NCBI RefSeq assembly: GCF_014836535.1
Contig: NZ_JACSQP010000004.1
Span: 309,715-373,714, forward strand
DNA length: 64,000 bases
Direction: 5' to 3'
Origin: Microbacterium pullorum
GTDB taxonomy: Bacteria > Actinomycetota > Actinomycetes > Actinomycetales > Microbacteriaceae
The notes below the pieces were generated by a model. The model did no database searches, had not been told where the DNA came from, and worked only from the letters and a program-made list of their open reading frames with translations. The position numbers and the translations under genes were made by a program. Below are positions 2,189-9,427 of the stretch, in pieces (within the stretch, counting starts at the first letter, position 1; every line of letters begins with the position of its first letter).

Positions 2189-3277
2189 CTAGCGCAACCG
2201 CATCCCGAGTCCGGCGTGCGGGGTCTCGGTGAGGCGCCCGTCGGCGATGGCGACGGGGGAGGGATCGGACAGCGCGCCGAGGAAGCCGAACCCGGCATCC
2301 TCGACGTCTTCGACCAGCGGCGCGGGCACCCCGGGGGTCGCGGGAAGGCACAGCGCCAGCTGGCCCGAGAGCTCGGGGAGCAGGTGCGGATGCAGCGCCG
2401 CGCCGTGGTCGGCGGCACGCTCGGCGATGCGCAGGAAGGGGGTGATGCCTCCCACGCGCACGATGTTCGGCTGCACGATCTGGGCGGCATCGGCCCGCAG
2501 GAAGTCCGCGAACCGGTGCACCGTGTGCAGGTTCTCGCCCAGCGCGATGGGGATGGCGGACGAGGCGCGCAACCGGCGGGCGAGCTCGGTGTGCCCGGCG
2601 AGGTCGTCGGCGCGCAGCGGCTCCTCGATCCAGGCCGGGGAGACCTCGGCCAGCACCTCGAGGTGGCGCGTCGCGCGGTCGAGGTCCCACCGCTGGTTGG
2701 CGTCGATCATGAGCGCGCGGTCCGCTCCGATGACCTCGCGTACGGCGCGGAGGCGCTCGAGGTCTTCGGTGACGTCGGGCTTGCCGACCTTGACCTTGAC
2801 GGCGTCGAAGCCCGCCGCCGCCCAGCGCTCGGCCTGGGCGACGAGCTCGGGGAGCGGGTAGTGCAGGTTCACACCGCTGCCGTAGACCGCCACGCTCTCG
2901 CGGTGCCGCCCGACGAGCTGCGAGACCGAGCCACCGGCGGCGCGCGCCGCGGCATCCCACACCGCCAGATCGAGCCCGGCCAGGGCGATCGTGGTGATGC
3001 CGCCGCCCCCGGCCTCGTGCAGGTGCTCCCAGAGCCCCTGCCACGCCTCACCGGGGGCGGCCGAGCGCCCCACCGCGGCGGGGGCGAGGTCGTGCTGCAG
3101 CAGCGCCCGCACCGCTTCGGCGCCGATCTGAGGGGTCCACGAGAACCCCCAGCCCTCGGCGCCGTCGTCACGCACCAGGTGGGTCGCGATCACGCCCACG
3201 CTCGTCACATCGGCGCCCCACGGGCGCGTCAGCGGCACGCGCACCAGGCGCGCGTCGAGCGAGGCGATGGTGGTCAC
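2189..3277 (-). CDS. Enolase-superfamily sugar-acid dehydratase/cycloisomerase (mandelate racemase/muconate lactonizing family)
   Basis: A 362-residue enolase-superfamily protein. Visible active-site pattern: KVK (K161/K163), metal ligands D192 in MIDANQRWD, E218/E219 in WIEEPL and E248 in LGENLHT, and a His pair in HPHLLPE near 296-298. The family abstracts the proton alpha to a carboxylate. Beside KdgD and a semialdehyde dehydrogenase, the likely job is dehydration of an aldarate (galactarate/glucarate) or ring opening of galactarolactone to the keto-deoxy acid used by KdgD. Which of these it does cannot be read from sequence. The GTG start overlaps the kdgD stop in a GTGA, indicating translational coupling. 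Confidence 0.82.
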   Translation of the reverse strand: MTTIASLDARLVRVPLTRPWGADVTSVGVIATHLVRDDGAEGWGFSWTPQIGAEAVRALLQHDLAPAAVGRSAAPGEAWQGLWEHLHEAGGGGITTIALAGLDLAVWDAAARAAGGSVSQLVGRHRESVAVYGSGVNLHYPLPELVAQAERWAAAGFDAVKVKVGKPDVTEDLERLRAVREVIGADRALMIDANQRWDLDRATRHLEVLAEVSPAWIEEPLRADDLAGHTELARRLRASSAIPIALGENLHTVHRFADFLRADAAQIVQPNIVRVGGITPFLRIAERAADHGAALHPHLLPELSGQLALCLPATPGVPAPLVEDVEDAGFGFLGALSDPSPVAIADGRLTETPHAGLGMRLR

Positions 3278-4173
3278 AGCAGCGCCCGCCCGGCGTCGAG
3301 GATCGCGGCCAGGCGTGCCTCCTGCTCGGGCGTCGGGTCGACCAGCGGCGCACGGACGCTGCCGACCGGGAGCCCGCTGAGGCGGAGCCCGGCCTTGACG
3401 AGCGAGACGCCGAAGCCGGGGGTCTCGTCGCGCAGGGCCACGAGCGGTGCGTAGAACCCGTCGAGCAGGGCCAGGCGACGGGCTTCGTCGCCGTCGACGT
3501 AGGCGCGGTAGTGGGCGCCTGCCACCTCGGGGATCATCGCGAACGCCGCCGACGAGTACAGCGGCATGCCGATGCCGCGGTAGGCGGCCTGCGTGAGCTC
3601 GGCGGTGAGCAGCCCGTTGAACAGGGCGAAGTCGTCGCGGCCGGATTCGGCCACGGCGCGCACGATCAGCTGGGCGGTGCCGATGTCGCCCACGCCGTCC
3701 TTGAAGCCGACGACCTTGGGGTTCTCCAGCAGACGGCGCACCGAATCGGGCGTGAACTGCGCGTTCGCACGGTGGTAGACGATGACCGGCAGATCGGATG
3801 CCGCGGCCACCGCTTCGACGTACGCGACGAGCCCGGCCTGCGGCGCCCCCACGAGGTAGGGCGGCAGCACCAGCAGTGCGTCGGCGCCGGCATCGGCCGC
3901 GCCCCGCGCCACCTCGAGCGCGTGACCGAGGGGTCCGCCGGCGCCGGCGACGACCGGCACGGCGCCGGCCACCGCGGCGACGGCGGTGCGCACGACCGCG
4001 GTCGCCTCGGCCGACGTGAGCGCGTGGTACTCGCCCGTGCCGCAGGCGGGGAAGACGCCGCCGGCGCCGGCGGCGATGCCGGTGGCGACGTGCTCGGCGA
4101 GGAGGGTGTGTTCGATCGCGCCGGCGCGGTCGAACGGCGTGACGGGGAAGAAGAGGATGCCGTCGAATCTCAT
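3274..4173 (-). CDS. kdgD: 5-dehydro-4-deoxyglucarate dehydratase (KdgD-type, DHDPS superfamily)
   Basis: A 299-residue class I aldolase-fold enzyme. KdgD removes water and CO2 from 5-dehydro-4-deoxy-D-glucarate to give 2-oxoglutarate semialdehyde. The diagnostic GVFPACGTGEYHALT lies at residues 39-53, the family Tyr is in VIVYHR (Y133), and the Schiff-base Lys is in VVGFKDGVGD (K158). Length equals that of known KdgD proteins. The ATG overlaps the end of the SDR gene (ATGA), and the stop overlaps the next gene (GTGA). With the dehydratase and the ALDH it makes a complete aldarate-to-2-oxoglutarate route. Confidence 0.92.
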   Translation of the reverse strand: MRFDGILFFPVTPFDRAGAIEHTLLAEHVATGIAAGAGGVFPACGTGEYHALTSAEATAVVRTAVAAVAGAVPVVAGAGGPLGHALEVARGAADAGADALLVLPPYLVGAPQAGLVAYVEAVAAASDLPVIVYHRANAQFTPDSVRRLLENPKVVGFKDGVGDIGTAQLIVRAVAESGRDDFALFNGLLTAELTQAAYRGIGMPLYSSAAFAMIPEVAGAHYRAYVDGDEARRLALLDGFYAPLVALRDETPGFGVSLVKAGLRLSGLPVGSVRAPLVDPTPEQEARLAAILDAGRALL

Positions 4174-5150
4174 ACGGGCGCGTCCTTTCGGGCGGGGGTG
4201 GGAGGGAGGGTGGCGGTGGCGTGTGTCGGGACGTCTGCGTCGGTGGTCGCGCCGACATCGGCGAGTTCGGTGCGCCAGCTGTGGCGCGGCGCCCAGCCGA
4301 GCAGGCGGCGGGCTTTGGCGTTGGAGAAGGCGGGCAGGGTGCCGGTGAGGCCGGCAGCCAGCTCTGCTGAGCCCGGCACGAACAGGGGCAGCAGTTCGGC
4401 GAGCGGGCGGCGGGCGAGGGCATCGTCGGCGCCGACGAAGAACGTCTCGCCGTTCGGGATGTCGGGGAGGGCGGCCAGCAGGGTGTCGGTGAAGCGGGCG
4501 ACATCGCGCGCGTCGACGTAGTTGAACAGGGCCGGGGCCGCCAGTGCGGGGTCGTCGAGGCGTTCGCGCACGGTGTGGCCCTGCTGAGTGGGCTCGCCTG
4601 CCCATTCTTCGGGGGTCAGCACGTAACAGGGACGGAACGACGCGAACCGCACGGCGTCGCCCACCTGGCGGCGCAGCATGTCGACCGTCTGCTCGATCAC
4701 GAGCTTCGACAGGGCATAGGCGTTCCACGGACGCGGCGGGGTGCGCTCGTCGAGCGGGAAGCGCTCGGGAAGCCACCCGGCGGGGGCGTGGTACCCCAGC
4801 ACGGTGGGGCTGGATGCCGCGACCACCCGGGTGACGCCCGCGGCCACCGCGCCGCCGAGCACCGACATCGCCAGTGCGGCGTTCGTGCGCAGGATGACGT
4901 CTTCGGGGGCGCTGAAGGGCACCGCGATCGCGGCGAGGTGCACGACCGCCTCGGGGTGGGCGGCCTCGAGCGCGGCGCGGGTGGCCGGCGCGTCGCAGAG
5001 GTCGATCTCGCGCTGCGTGACGCCCGCCGACTCCAGCGCGGGCGAGGTGGCGCGGTCCAGCGACAGCACGTCGTGGCCGGCGGCCGCGAGCCCTGCGGCG
5101 AGGGTGCGCCCCAGCCGCCCGGCGCCTCCGGTGACGACGATGCGGCTCAC
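4170..5150 (-). CDS. NAD(P)-dependent extended SDR (epimerase/dehydratase fold), possible uronate/sugar dehydrogenase
   Basis: A 326-residue Rossmann-fold protein of the extended short-chain dehydrogenase type: TGGAGRLGR nucleotide loop at residues 7-15, HLAAI near 71, Ser pair near 113, and the catalytic Tyr and Lys in NAYALSKLVIEQ (Y145, K149). The operon makes aldarates from something upstream, so a uronate dehydrogenase role (hexuronate to aldarolactone) is attractive. However, the protein is longer than the roughly 265-residue uronate dehydrogenases, so an epimerase or another sugar dehydrogenase is also possible. The GTG start forms a GTGA overlap with the preceding gene. Confidence 0.75.
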   Translation of the reverse strand: MSRIVVTGGAGRLGRTLAAGLAAAGHDVLSLDRATSPALESAGVTQREIDLCDAPATRAALEAAHPEAVVHLAAIAVPFSAPEDVILRTNAALAMSVLGGAVAAGVTRVVAASSPTVLGYHAPAGWLPERFPLDERTPPRPWNAYALSKLVIEQTVDMLRRQVGDAVRFASFRPCYVLTPEEWAGEPTQQGHTVRERLDDPALAAPALFNYVDARDVARFTDTLLAALPDIPNGETFFVGADDALARRPLAELLPLFVPGSAELAAGLTGTLPAFSNAKARRLLGWAPRHSWRTELADVGATTDADVPTHATATLPPTPARKDAPV

Positions 5151-6484
5151 GCGGAGCCTCCCGACAGCAGCGGGATGCCGAGCTCTTCCACTCGCACCGG
5201 CAGGCCCGTCTGCAGCGAACGGTTGCCGGCGATGCCCACGGCGATCGAGCGCACCCCGTCGGTCCAGTCCGCCGGGCGGGACAGGGGATCGTCTCCCGGT
5301 CCGACGAACACGTCCGACAGCAGCAGCGCGTCACCGCCGCCGTGCCCGCCCGCTCCGGCGTGGATCGGCACCTCGACGGCCTCTTCCCAGTGGCGCTGCA
5401 CGAGCAGCCGCTCGCCCCGGGGACGCAGCGAAGCCGCATCGGCGGCGGCCACGGCGCTCGGGTCGAGCACGGGGTGCAGGCCCTCGTCGACGAGCACCGC
5501 GCCGCGCTCGACGACCTCGAGCTCCGCGCGGCCGAGGGTGCCGTTGACGGCCACCCGGTAGCCCTCCCACGGGGCGTGGGCGTTGAGGGAGTACGACAGT
5601 GTGGCGCCGCCGGAGTAGTCGACGACGAGGGCGAGGTTGTCTTCGATCGTGATGCCCGGACCGAACACGTCGCGGTCGCGGATGTACCCGTCGTGCTGTT
5701 CCGCCGCGAGGTAGAGGGCCTCCAGACGAGGGTCGTCGCGCAGGTCGAGCTCGAACGGGTCGTGGTCGCCGTCGTGGGTGCCGCGGGTCGGGCGCTCGCC
5801 CAGGCCGCGCGCGGCGGCGTTGGCGTCACCGTAGAAGCGCAGCCCGCCCGAGGCGTAGACCCGTCGAGGTTCCTGGCGCAGCCACCAGTTGACCAGGTCG
5901 AAGTGGTGGCTGGATTTGTGCACGAGCAGCCCGCCGGAGTGCTGCTTCTCGCGGTGCCAGCGGCGGAAGTAGTCCGCCCCGTGCTTGGTGTCGAGCATCC
6001 AGGAGAAATCGACCGAGGTGACCTCGCCGATGAGGCCGTCCTGGATGACCTGGCGCAGCGCGCTGTTGCGAGGCGAGTAGCGGTAGTTGAACGTCAGCAC
6101 GACGCTGCGCCCCGTGCGCTCGACGGCGCGCTCGATGGCGGCGGCGCTCGCCGCGTCGATCGTGAGGGGCTTTTCGACCACGACGTCTGCGCCCGCGTCG
6201 AGCGAGCGCACGATCAGCTCGGCGTGCAGGTCGTCGCGCGCGCAGACGATGACCCGATCGATGTGCTCGGCCCGGATCATCTCCTCGAGCCGGTCGGGCG
6301 TCCAGACCGTGGGGGCCTCGGCGCCGCGCTCTTGGGAGTAGGCGACGGTGCGGGCGGCACGCACCGGGTTGGGCTCGCAGACGGCCACCAGCGTCGCGCG
6401 GTCGGCGTATTGCTCGGTGAGGGCGTCGACGTACATCTGCGAGCGGTGGCCGGCGCCGAGGAGCGCGTAGCGGGTCTTCGTCAT
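5147..6484 (-). CDS. Gfo/Idh/MocA family oxidoreductase
   Basis: A 445-residue NAD(P)-dependent sugar oxidoreductase and first gene of the oxidative operon. Seen: N-terminal Rossmann loop LLGAGHRSQMY, the EKP signature in VVVEKPLTID, and a C-terminal substrate domain with HKSSHHFDLVNWW, in which the paired His is typical. A Gly/His-rich insert around GAGGHGGGD near the C-terminus is unusual. The substrate is unknown. It may oxidise a galacturonate, rhamnose or related sugar feeding the coupled SDR and KdgD genes. The ATG has an AAGAGAG ribosome site. A promoter with an operator lies about 30-50 nt upstream. Confidence 0.85.
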   Translation of the reverse strand: MTKTRYALLGAGHRSQMYVDALTEQYADRATLVAVCEPNPVRAARTVAYSQERGAEAPTVWTPDRLEEMIRAEHIDRVIVCARDDLHAELIVRSLDAGADVVVEKPLTIDAASAAAIERAVERTGRSVVLTFNYRYSPRNSALRQVIQDGLIGEVTSVDFSWMLDTKHGADYFRRWHREKQHSGGLLVHKSSHHFDLVNWWLRQEPRRVYASGGLRFYGDANAAARGLGERPTRGTHDGDHDPFELDLRDDPRLEALYLAAEQHDGYIRDRDVFGPGITIEDNLALVVDYSGGATLSYSLNAHAPWEGYRVAVNGTLGRAELEVVERGAVLVDEGLHPVLDPSAVAAADAASLRPRGERLLVQRHWEEAVEVPIHAGAGGHGGGDALLLSDVFVGPGDDPLSRPADWTDGVRSIAVGIAGNRSLQTGLPVRVEELGIPLLSGGSA

Positions 6485-6575: not shown

Positions 6576-7577
6576 TCAGGCCGGGGCGGGCCCGGTGCTG
6601 CCGCGCACCAGCAGCCGCGGGGTGAGCGCGACGGCGGCATCCGCCTCGCCCCCGGTCAGCTGCGCCTTCATCGCCGCCCACGCGCGTGCGCCGAGGTCGC
6701 CGCCGGGGACGGCGGAGGTCGTCAGCGGCGGTGTGGTGTACTGCGCGAAGGGGATGTCGTCGAAGCCGGCCACTGAGATGTCCTGCGGCACCCGGATGCC
6801 ACGATCGGCGAGTGCGGACAGCAGCCCCATCGCGACGAGGTCGTTGAAGGCGAGCGCTCCCGTCGCGCCGCTGGCGCTCACCGCGTCGGCGGCCCCCGAC
6901 CCGCTGTCGAAGTCCACGCCGCAGGGGATCTCATCGACCACCAGGTCGGCGTGCGCGGCGCGGGCATCGGCGAGCGCCGCCCGACGGGCCGCGTTCGAGG
7001 CACTGCGTTCGAGGCCGGCGAGGTAGATGAGGTGTCGGTGGCCCCGCCCGTACAGGTGGTCCACCACCGTGCGGAACGCCGTGCGGTAGTCGGCGCCGAC
7101 GACCGGTGCGCTCGCCTGCGCCGGGCGGTTGATGACGACGACGGGGGTGAGGGTCGGCAGGAGCGCTGCGAGGTCGTCGTCGGTCATGCGCGGCGCGCAG
7201 AGCACGACGCCGTCGGTGCGTCGGCGGGTCTCGGTCGCGAGCACCGGCTCTTCGGCGACCTGCTCGGCCGAGTCGGCGATGAGCACGTGGTAGCCGTCGG
7301 CGGCGGCGGCGCGGCTGAGTCCTCGCAGGATCTCCTGGAAGGTCGGGTTGGCGAGGTCGGGCACGACGACGGCGATGGTCTGGGTGCGGCCCAACACGAG
7401 GCTGCGCGCGAGCGGGTTGGCGGTGTAGCCGAGCTCGGAAGCGGCGGCGCGCACGCGCTCGGCCATCTCGGCGTCGACCGTGGCGTTGCCGTTCATGACG
7501 CGAGACACCGTCGACAGCGACACCCCGGCGCGGTGCGCGACGTCGGTGATGGTGGGCTTGCCCGGCGTTTTCGCCAT
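6576..7577 (-). CDS. LacI-family transcriptional regulator (A)
   Basis: A 333-residue LacI/GalR regulator. The N-terminal helix-turn-helix is ITDVAHRAGVSLSTVSRVMN (residues about 9-28), followed by a hinge with NPLARSLVLGRTQ and a periplasmic-binding-protein-like effector domain ending in the typical VAGFDDIPFAQYTTPPLTT block. It lies next to the oxidative operon it may control and has an operator-like site in its own promoter region, suggesting autoregulation. It and regulator B (35758) are both candidates for the GGAAANCGCTTTCC sites. The effector is unknown, possibly a uronate or rhamnogalacturonan-derived sugar. Confidence 0.92.
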   Translation of the reverse strand: MAKTPGKPTITDVAHRAGVSLSTVSRVMNGNATVDAEMAERVRAAASELGYTANPLARSLVLGRTQTIAVVVPDLANPTFQEILRGLSRAAAADGYHVLIADSAEQVAEEPVLATETRRRTDGVVLCAPRMTDDDLAALLPTLTPVVVINRPAQASAPVVGADYRTAFRTVVDHLYGRGHRHLIYLAGLERSASNAARRAALADARAAHADLVVDEIPCGVDFDSGSGAADAVSASGATGALAFNDLVAMGLLSALADRGIRVPQDISVAGFDDIPFAQYTTPPLTTSAVPGGDLGARAWAAMKAQLTGGEADAAVALTPRLLVRGSTGPAPA

Positions 7578-7627
7578 GTGCGGTGTTTCCGTCCCCGTTG
7601 CGTCCCAGCGGCCGGCGGCCGGATCCC

Positions 7628-7652
7628 ATAGTATCGCGAGAAATCGCTTTCC
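7628..7652 (-). promoter_or_regulatory. Promoter -10 and operator upstream of LacI regulator A
   Basis: On the minus strand GGAAAGCGATTTCT (7639-7652) precedes TACTAT (7628-7633), a good -10 box, 50 nt before the lacI ATG. The operator fills the -35 to -10 gap. It also lies 50 nt upstream of the divergent M24-fold gene and could serve both. Confidence 0.65.
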
Positions 7653-7701: not shown

Positions 7702-8745
7702 ATGCCGTCCATCGCCGACCGCCGCGTCAAGAGAGAACGCCTCGCACGAGTGCGCGCCCAGGCGGGCGGCCGCCCGCTGCTGCTGACTTCCCATGAGGCG
7801 GTGTCCTGGTACCTCGATGGCGTGCGCACCCACGTCTCGCTGGCGGGTCCGCCCGTGGTCGCGGTGCGGGTGGAAGACGACGGCGACGCCCTCTACGTCG
7901 CCGCCAACGAGGCGGAGCGGCTCGCGGCCGAGGAACTGCTCGCCGATGACGCCGCCCGCATCGTCACCGTGCCGTGGTGGACGCCGCCCGCCGTGGCGGC
8001 CGCTGCCGCGGGCGGCGCGATCGAGGAGGCCGCGGTGGCGGCGTCGCTGCGGGCGGCGCGCGCCTCGCTGCTGCCGCGCGAGCGGGAGCGCTACCGGGCG
8101 CTGGGGCGGGAGGCCGCCGAGGCGATGACCGATGCCGCCGGCTCCCTGTCGCCGGCGACCTCGGAGCACGGCGCGGCGGCGGCGCTCGCCGCGGCCCTCG
8201 TCGAGCGGGGGATCGAGCCGCTCGTGGTGCTCGTCGCCGGCCGATCGCGCCTGGTCCACCGGCATCCGCTCCCCACCGAAGCGCCGCTCGGCGACCGCGC
8301 CATGCTCGTGGCCTGCGGGCGCCGACACGGCCTGATCGCGAACCTGACGCGCTGGGTGGGCGAGTCCGGGGGCGATGACGAGCGGATCCTCGCCGTGGAG
8401 GCGGCGTTCCTGGCGGCGTCCCGACCGGGGGAGAAGCTCTCCGACGTCTTCGCCGCGGGGTGCGCCGGCTACGGTGCCCAGGGTTTCGCGATGGACGAGT
8501 GGACCCGCCACCACCAGGGTGGGCCCACCGGCTACGCCGGGCGCGACCCGCGGGCCACGGCGGAGACCGATGACGTCATCGCCTCGCACCAGGCGTTCGC
8601 GTGGAACCCCAGCGCCCCGGGCGCCAAGGTCGAGGACACCGTGATCGTCGGCGACGACGGCGTGGAGGTGCTGACGACCGACCCGCGCTGGCCGGCGGTC
8701 GCCCACGCCGGTCTGCTGCGGCCGACGGCGCTCGCGTTCTCCTGA
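7702..8745 (+). CDS. Peptidase M24 (pita-bread fold) family protein with missing metal ligands
   Basis: A 347-residue protein with the creatinase-like N-terminal half and the pita-bread C-terminal half of the M24 family (Xaa-Pro peptidase, creatinase). The expected metal-ligand positions can be followed: the first Asp is Ala (A204 in MLVACG), the second Asp is Asn (N214 in IANLTR), the central His remains (H270/H271), the first Glu is Asn (N302 in AWNP), and the last Glu remains (E311 in KVEDT). Three of five ligands are therefore lost, so a metal-dependent peptidase is unlikely. Creatinase is a metal-free precedent in this fold. There is no signal peptide. It is divergent from lacI A and convergent with the esterase gene (4-nt gap). 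The substrate is unknown. Confidence 0.82.
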   Translation: MPSIADRRVKRERLARVRAQAGGRPLLLTSHEAVSWYLDGVRTHVSLAGPPVVAVRVEDDGDALYVAANEAERLAAEELLADDAARIVTVPWWTPPAVAAAAAGGAIEEAAVAASLRAARASLLPRERERYRALGREAAEAMTDAAGSLSPATSEHGAAAALAAALVERGIEPLVVLVAGRSRLVHRHPLPTEAPLGDRAMLVACGRRHGLIANLTRWVGESGGDDERILAVEAAFLAASRPGEKLSDVFAAGCAGYGAQGFAMDEWTRHHQGGPTGYAGRDPRATAETDDVIASHQAFAWNPSAPGAKVEDTVIVGDDGVEVLTTDPRWPAVAHAGLLRPTALAFS

Positions 8746-8749
8746 CCGC

Positions 8750-9427
8750 TCAGGCGAGGTGCGGTGAGCCCAGCGCCGGTGCGTCGCCGTCGCGCCGCTC
8801 GATCGCCCGCAGCGAGCGCGCCACGAAGGCGGCGATGCGGCGGGCGCCCTCGAGGCGGAAGTGCGTGTCGTCGACCAGGCCCTCGGGCCACGCCGGCGCC
8901 TCGTCGGGCGCGAAGTGCGAGAAGAGTCCGGCCGATGCCACGGGCCCGAGGTCCTCGTAGAGCCACGTCGTGAACGCGGTCAGGTCGATGAGGGGCGCAC
9001 GCAGGTCGTCGGCCAGGTCGCGGACGGCGTTGGGATGCGCGCCGTGGGTGGGGGTGACGTGCCCGTCGTCGTCGAACCGACGGCGTTCGCAGGGCGTGCA
9101 CAGCACGGCGACGGCGCCGCGTTCGCGGGCCTCGAGCGCGAATCCCCGCAGTCGGCGGGTGTAGCCGCCCCGGGCGTCGAGCAGGGGATCCTTCTGGTCG
9201 TTGTGGCCGAACTGGATGACGACGGTGTCGCCCGGCCGCACCTCGGACAGCAGCCGCTGCCAGCATCCGGTGGACTCGAACGTCGCCGTCGTGGCGCCGC
9301 CGAACGCGAGGTTGCGCACCACCGCGCCCAGCTGCTCGCTGAGTGCCTCGCCCCAGCCGGCCATCGGCGACTCGGCCGGTTTCATCGGGGCGACCGTCGA
9401 GTCCCCTGCCAGAAGGTAAGTCGTCAT
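8750..9427 (-). CDS. Rhamnogalacturonan acetylesterase-like SGNH/GDSL hydrolase (CE12 type)
   Basis: A 225-residue SGNH hydrolase. Block I is GDST with nucleophile S10, the oxyanion block is GHND (N76), and block V is DDTHFRLEGA with D186 and H188. This set, together with FGHNDQKDP, is typical of rhamnogalacturonan acetylesterases (RhgT/YesT), which remove acetyl groups from galacturonate in rhamnogalacturonan-I. There is no signal peptide, so it should act on imported oligosaccharides. The ATG has a CGGAGGA ribosome site. It is divergent from the ABC exporter, whose operator region may control both. Another sugar-acetate substrate is possible. Confidence 0.86.
   Translation of the reverse strand: MTTYLLAGDSTVAPMKPAESPMAGWGEALSEQLGAVVRNLAFGGATTATFESTGCWQRLLSEVRPGDTVVIQFGHNDQKDPLLDARGGYTRRLRGFALEARERGAVAVLCTPCERRRFDDDGHVTPTHGAHPNAVRDLADDLRAPLIDLTAFTTWLYEDLGPVASAGLFSHFAPDEAPAWPEGLVDDTHFRLEGARRIAAFVARSLRAIERRDGDAPALGSPHLA

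Follow-up and report, generated by a model that had tools for sequence, protein, structure and literature searches.

In this study, we describe an unrecognised, old and widespread family of proteins with the M24 "pita-bread" fold of prolidases which probably act as metal-free aldose 1-epimerases (mutarotases) in sugar catabolism. The member from which the analysis started is encoded in the window, by which we mean the whole stretch of 64,000 nucleotides that was analysed, in an open reading frame on the + strand at 7702-8745 that begins with ATG and yields a product of 347 amino acids. We infer the activity of the family, its sugar and the catalytic roles of its residues from conservation, gene context and distribution. 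Homology and context indicate that the sugar of the window protein is probably D-galacturonate or D-glucuronate from pectin. A wider reading, which we regard as evenly balanced between true and false, is that annotated peptidases across several phyla and the haloarchaea make up an M24-fold mutarotase superfamily with galactose, xylose, fucose-type and uronate sub-clades, which fills Leloir operons lacking galM and supplies the oxidative galacturonate pathway.

Members of this family are recorded in databases as "M24 metallopeptidase", some with the GO term proteolysis, and the window protein matches PF00557 (M24) at 26.7 bits, barely above the cut-off of 23. In the NCBIfam scan nothing was listed for it up to an E of 1, and neither Pfam nor NCBIfam holds a model specific to its family. 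No match to PF01263, the GalM family, was listed at E up to 10, and the FucU/RbsD, RhaM and NanM mutarotase families were unmatched in the Pfam scan. Searching the PDB sequences with the single protein gave chance matches only; relatives were detectable only with an alignment profile, by which the ectoine hydrolase DoeA was matched at an E of only 0.008. The AlphaFold2 model, built on an alignment of 44 sequences (mean pLDDT 95.4), shows the full two-domain pita-bread fold, and the reading frame, the Pfam match and the model all agree with the preliminary description of an M24-fold protein at this place. The model is closest in structure to prolidases and aminopeptidases (Z up to 30.1). DoeA (6yo9, Z 29.2) and creatinase (7yto, Z 28.8; 1chm, Z 28.4) are matched about as well as prolidase, with Z values of 28.2-29.2 overall, and the DMSP lyase DddP (Z 26.8) is also among the structural matches.

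The metal ligands were mapped by aligning the family to nine true prolidases, taken from the window's genome and three other genomes, with hhalign (probability 99.7) and MAFFT. Both programs place the second metal Asp at N214, the metal His at G274 and the last Glu at E311; the first metal Asp falls on V203 in MAFFT or inside a two-residue deletion in hhalign, and the first metal Glu on N302 in hhalign or opposite a gap in MAFFT. Two of three HMMER profile alignments also set the metal His at G274, while the third (5cdl) sets it at H271, and H188 aligns with the active-site His of the prolidases. Given the agreement of the two aligners and two of the three HMMER alignments, the sequences suggest that probably four of the five ligands are gone, with E311 as the sole survivor. 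The preliminary description had counted three lost ligands: the loss itself stands, as do N214 for the second Asp and the retained last Glu, but the number is probably four. Its first Asp at A204 was misplaced, its reading of N302 as one Glu is shared by hhalign and not by MAFFT, and the metal His that it took to be retained is kept in the 5cdl alignment only.

None of the 77 aligned members, the window's own copy included, has Asp, Glu or His at columns 203, 204, 205, 214, 274 or 302; the substitutions are thus conserved, and no member restores the ligands. Invariant in 77 of 77 are E70, W92, H188, R217, H271, Q272, G274, R281, N302, P303, K309, E311 and T313. An intact dinuclear site hidden by misalignment is rejected on the prolidase alignments together with the columns of the 77 members. 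A lone degenerate gene or pseudogene is likewise rejected, because the residue pattern is fixed across 77 sequences. The ligand loss across the family supports the earlier opinion that peptidase activity with two metals is improbable. The alternative of a still active peptidase whose metal site is rearranged could draw on the invariant H271 and E311 and on the one HMMER alignment that puts H271 at the metal His. However, six lost-ligand columns without Asp, Glu or His in 77 sequences, and a placement in sugar operons that such a peptidase leaves unexplained, make it very improbable.

The relatives comprise 53 loci of named genomes and, among 148 related genomes, 19 that carry a member (own genome included; three weaker matches, with E of 3.6e-4 to 9e-4, were left out of this count). 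Plasmid-borne relatives occur in Thermus, Deinococcus, cyanobacteria, haloarchaea and Pantoea, and the plasmid contexts given below come from 8 of the 37 plasmid records with a match. The 77 aligned members span bacteria and haloarchaea; alignment A1 omits ten of the 53 loci (L023, L028, L029, L033, L035, L048, L056 and L071-L073), the 69-row alignment omits L020 and L071-L073, and the family tree omits L035. In this tree, made by a quick method, the members group largely by sugar context, several inner branches being weak and six rows long, and the galK-linked members take three separate positions (Firmicutes, Massilia and L040). Frondihabitans sucicola (L034, L035) carries the M24/uronate locus twice, at 99.9% identity and near both ends of the chromosome record, and the best aligned stretch of the L035 protein starts only at residue 87. 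A contig titled Vibrio cholerae strain 35D (L033) holds an M24 copy of actinobacterial type at 68% GC and is therefore probably a contaminant.

In the window, an oxidative uronate operon stands opposite the M24 gene. The features are as follows:

694-2142, - strand: aldehyde dehydrogenase, probably acting on ketoglutaric semialdehyde (no listed model reached its cut-off)
2189-3277, - strand: enolase-superfamily dehydratase/cycloisomerase (closest NCBIfam model, talarate/galactarate dehydratase, not reaching its cut-off)
3274-4173, - strand: 5-dehydro-4-deoxyglucarate dehydratase, KdgD (passes the cut-off of the subfamily model NF002958 but not that of the equivalog model TIGR03249)
4170-5150, - strand: NAD-dependent protein of the epimerase family, taken from its context as uronate dehydrogenase, Udh (no NCBIfam match above cut-off)
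5147-6484, - strand: Gfo/Idh/MocA oxidoreductase, conserved partner (Pfam, locus comparison)
6576-7577, - strand: LacI-family regulator, divergent from the M24 gene (Pfam, locus comparison)
7627-7634, + strand: CATAGTAT, a possible -10 element beside the operator, a lead only (CATACT or CATATT in 16 of 20 relatives)
7638-7649, no strand assigned: putative LacI-type site GAGAAATCGCTT, 64 bases 5' of the M24 ATG (motif conservation)
7702-8745, + strand: protein of the M24 fold that lacks a metal site; candidate (uronate) mutarotase of 347 amino acids (Pfam, model, alignments)
8750-9427, - strand: GDSL esterase that converges on the M24 gene and weakly resembles the pectin acetylesterase PaeY

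The epimerase-family protein is read as uronate dehydrogenase from the adjoining KdgD, which scores above its subfamily cut-off. Of 16 loci from the window's clade, 13 bring M24 and Udh together within about 10-13 kb; one genome contributes two of these 13 as near-identical copies. The Gfo/Idh/MocA gene is present in all 13 of these Udh-bearing loci, and on the Udh strand in 12 of them. A putative LacI-type site, mostly GAGAAAnCGTTT, lies 24-50 bases 5' of the M24 start in 19 of 20 close relatives, and together with the site in the window this supports the operator region that had been proposed to be common to the M24 gene and the neighbouring lacI gene.

Outside the window's relatives, the family is found in other sugar operons. 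The Firmicutes loci are mostly galT-galK-galE-M24-ROK or galT-galK-M24-ROK, with varying gene orders and some overlapping genes; galT or ROK stands elsewhere in the run in two of them, a phosphoglucomutase-like gene (named by eye) separates galE and M24 in another, and in G180 a long galT-like gene (also named by eye) does so. One close ortholog (G263, L170) has no adjoining gal genes. Massilia has galT-M24-galK in 3 of 3 loci. The two Thermus plasmids opened both carry a sugar ABC transporter, ROK, xylA, xylB, M24 and Gfo/Idh; on one of them, pVV8 (L074, 610-12650), the xylose operon with M24 lies between two copies of ISTth4 and may therefore be mobile as a unit. Fucose-isomerase-like genes cluster across nine M24 loci (seven of Acidobacteria, one of a Chloroflexi MAG and one of Deinococcus). 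The one Acidobacteria protein of this kind that was tested matches Pfam Fucose_iso_C, its best NCBIfam model being sulfoquinovose isomerase, far below cut-off, and the Deinococcus gene annotated as L-fucose isomerase has no Pfam match and lies on the strand opposite to M24. A Pantoea plasmid has GMC oxidoreductase-M24-SDR, and Haloprofundus has arabinofuranosidase genes near M24; the Natrinema neighbourhood was uninformative, and those of cyanobacteria hint only at glucan enzymes. In a candidate-division B38 genome (L040, 7099-8076), M24 is followed by a gene with a weak match to DUF5107 and none to a mutarotase family. No creatine or ectoine genes were seen in the M24 loci opened or compared, which were mostly sugar loci.

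These contexts bear on the main rival to the mutarotase reading, namely that the family consists of metal-free hydrolases of the creatinase or ectoine-hydrolase type, or of lactonases, and that the window protein opens the aldarolactone made by Udh. This would suit the structural matches to creatinase and DoeA, which are about equal to those of prolidase, and oxidoreductases or an aldehyde dehydrogenase are among the neighbours in Thermus, Pantoea and Deinococcus. Moreover, the oxidative uronate pathway yields a lactone intermediate which, according to an excerpt of PMC12076931, is possibly opened by a lactonase. However, members in galT-galK-galE-M24 operons, which produce neither a lactone nor an amide, carry the same invariant residues, and in the class of Aneurinibacillus the distribution of the family is complementary to that of PF01263, so that we consider this explanation unlikely. 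A creatinase-like hydrolase is not our main reading because the galactose, xylose and fucose-type loci need no C-N bond to be cut. The preliminary description had proposed a metal-free enzyme of the pectin locus, with creatinase as its model; the frame of a conserved sugar-locus enzyme working without metal is supported, whereas a hydrolase private to the pectin locus is not, since the family also stands in galactose, xylose and fucose-type loci.

It could also be supposed that the protein is a catalytically dead sugar-binding partner or sensor, acting for example with the adjoining ROK or LacI regulator. Most gal operons retrieved from Firmicutes have a ROK gene before or after M24, a LacI gene adjoins M24 in the window, and other M24-fold proteins such as the Spt16 domain, which are not known to be peptidases, are among the structural matches of the model. 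Yet the polar residues fixed in 77 of 77 members across bacteria and archaea go beyond what binding only would lead one to expect, no ROK gene is matched in the three Massilia loci, and the missing PF01263 would be left unexplained. We find this decidedly improbable.

If M24 is the mutarotase of galactose operons, it should replace galM, and this premise was followed in 200 genomes of the class of Aneurinibacillus, with family members called at E <= 1e-20 and close orthologs defined by 47% identity or more. A family member is present in 24 of these genomes, clear galK in 99 and PF01263 in 110 (the raw galK tally was 101, with 100 above cut-off, before the weak matches of G333 and G343 were removed); the 14 named control genomes have galK in 10 and PF01263 in 10. 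Of the galK-positive genomes, 12 have a close M24 ortholog, and PF01263 is found in 1 of these versus 84 of the 87 others (p 3e-11 by Fisher's test, without regard to kinship); when all family members are taken, it is found in 8 of 20 with versus 77 of 79 without (p 1e-8, kinship again ignored). All 12 close orthologs in galK-positive genomes start 2.2-5.9 kb from galK, and PF01263 lies within 15 kb of galK at 24 of 58 places (23 genomes), these being the first 58 among the matches listed. Distant members in the class, with 31-41% identity and including a fragment of 61% in G167, do not lie near galK; eight galK-positive genomes have such members only, and PF01263 is also present in seven of these. 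The genome G180 has both M24 and PF01263; its M24 gene is intact, and a TAG stands just before the ATG.

With regard to kinship, a quick rpoB tree held 80 of the 99 galK-positive genomes, the 19 left out being all M24-negative and PF01263-positive. On this tree the close-ortholog trait changes seven times, and in six supported independent pairs PF01263 differs in the opposite direction in 4-5, in the same direction in none, and not at all in 1-2 (sign test p 0.0625-0.125, not significant). The all-member trait gives eight pairs, with averages of 4.2 opposite, 0.5 same and 3.3 without difference, with as many as two pairs running against the expectation (median p 0.22, range 0.0625-0.688). The phylogeny-controlled evidence thus runs in the same direction and is underpowered; because the small p values are blind to kinship and the pair test is not significant, these data no more than suggest a displacement of galM.

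In the Desulfosporosinus family, a member of the M24 family is found in 12 of 12 galK-positive versus 1 of 33 galK-negative genomes (p 4.5e-10), and PF01263 in 2 of 45 genomes, both galK-positive. The member is close (71% or more) and on the galK contig in 9 of the 12, in G380 as two overlapping pieces, and distant (35-38%) in the other three. Of 19 chosen non-actinobacterial genomes with an M24 gene, 12 lack PF01263; the seven that carry both are three Massilia (3 of 3), Anoxybacillus, Cytobacillus (L048, with galK near M24), one Desulfosporosinus and Pullulanibacillus. In the window's own relatives (genus and order, own included), PF01263 is present in 92 of 98 genomes, and in 57 of 59 of its own genus; the window's genome has two copies, neither on the window's contig. 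As PF01263 is nearly universal in this genus, the displacement test is uninformative there, and homology and context carry the case for the window protein.

It may be argued that the distribution is a lineage effect, M24 having another role in galactose metabolism in lineages that lost galM for unrelated reasons. In agreement with this, the independent pairs reach p 0.0625-0.125 only, and PF01263 is rare in the Desulfosporosinus family with or without galK (2 of 45). Mutarotation, moreover, also proceeds unaided, so that galM could vanish without a replacement, which is a point against our reading. Nevertheless, the trait changes seven times across the rpoB tree, galM never changes the same way for close orthologs, and the complete operons leave no other Leloir step open; we therefore think a lineage effect rather unlikely. 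Replacement of galM would indicate mutarotation, and the mutarotase reading remains the one that we prefer.

According to this reading, the protein would take the ring form of a sugar as it comes from transport or glycosidases and convert it to the anomer used by the next enzyme, which would be galactokinase in the galactose operons and xylose or fucose-type isomerases in others. In the window, the anomer would probably be supplied to the uronate dehydrogenase acting on D-galacturonate or D-glucuronate. Galactokinase, xylose isomerase and uronate dehydrogenase all have anomer preferences. The emptied metal pocket would keep an acid-base pair, E311 and H188, of which one may remove the O1 proton while the other protonates the ring oxygen, so that the ring opens to the aldehyde, C1-C2 rotates and the ring closes again; R281, K309, N302, H271 and E70/R73 may bind the sugar hydroxyls. 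We propose these roles because of the conservation of the residues and of the roles of the His in aminopeptidase P and creatinase and of the Glu and His in GalM. We take H188 to occupy the position of the active-site, presumably catalytic, His in aminopeptidase P and creatinase, and the proposed pair resembles the catalytic Glu/His pair of GalM. In the entry to the Leloir pathway, a mutarotase converts beta-galactose to alpha-galactose, as stated in a portion of PMC12455998. That a mutarotase gene can be recognised by its operon has a precedent in the sulfoquinovose mutarotase (PMC5902678). Among the papers listed from the open-licence literature, as covered by titles, the starts of abstracts and term counts, no link between an M24-fold protein and mutarotation was found.

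If the reading is true, genes named "M24 family metallopeptidase" are sugar enzymes, and a missing step in the galactose pathway of many Firmicutes is accounted for. It would also add metal-free isomerase chemistry to a peptidase fold, and Microbacterium and its relatives would gain a candidate mutarotase for the uronate oxidation pathway.

Compared with prolidase PepQ and aminopeptidase P, the family shares the two-domain pita-bread fold, the order of motifs, E311, the place of H188 and the TR motif. It differs from them in the probable loss of four of the five ligands, in the fixed G274, N302, K309 and R281, and in its sugar loci. With creatinase and the ectoine hydrolase DoeA/EutD it has in common the fold, a metal site that is not conserved and, probably, a chemistry other than that of peptidases; creatinase is metal-free and retains the active-site His. 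Unlike these hydrolases, the family stands in a context of sugar catabolism and not of creatine or ectoine. The DMSP lyase DddP is a further case of the M24 fold recruited for non-peptidase chemistry, but in contrast to the window's family it keeps the metal ligands and binds iron, as reported in a section of PMC4108388. The likeness to GalM/YihR (PF01263) lies in the proposed reaction, the place in galactose operons and the complementary distribution in one class, whereas the window protein belongs to a different sequence family, with no PF01263 match. The fold of GalM/YihR also differs from the M24 fold. A precedent for such a difference is given by FucU/RbsD, RhaM and NanM, which are unrelated folds that serve as the mutarotases of single pathways.
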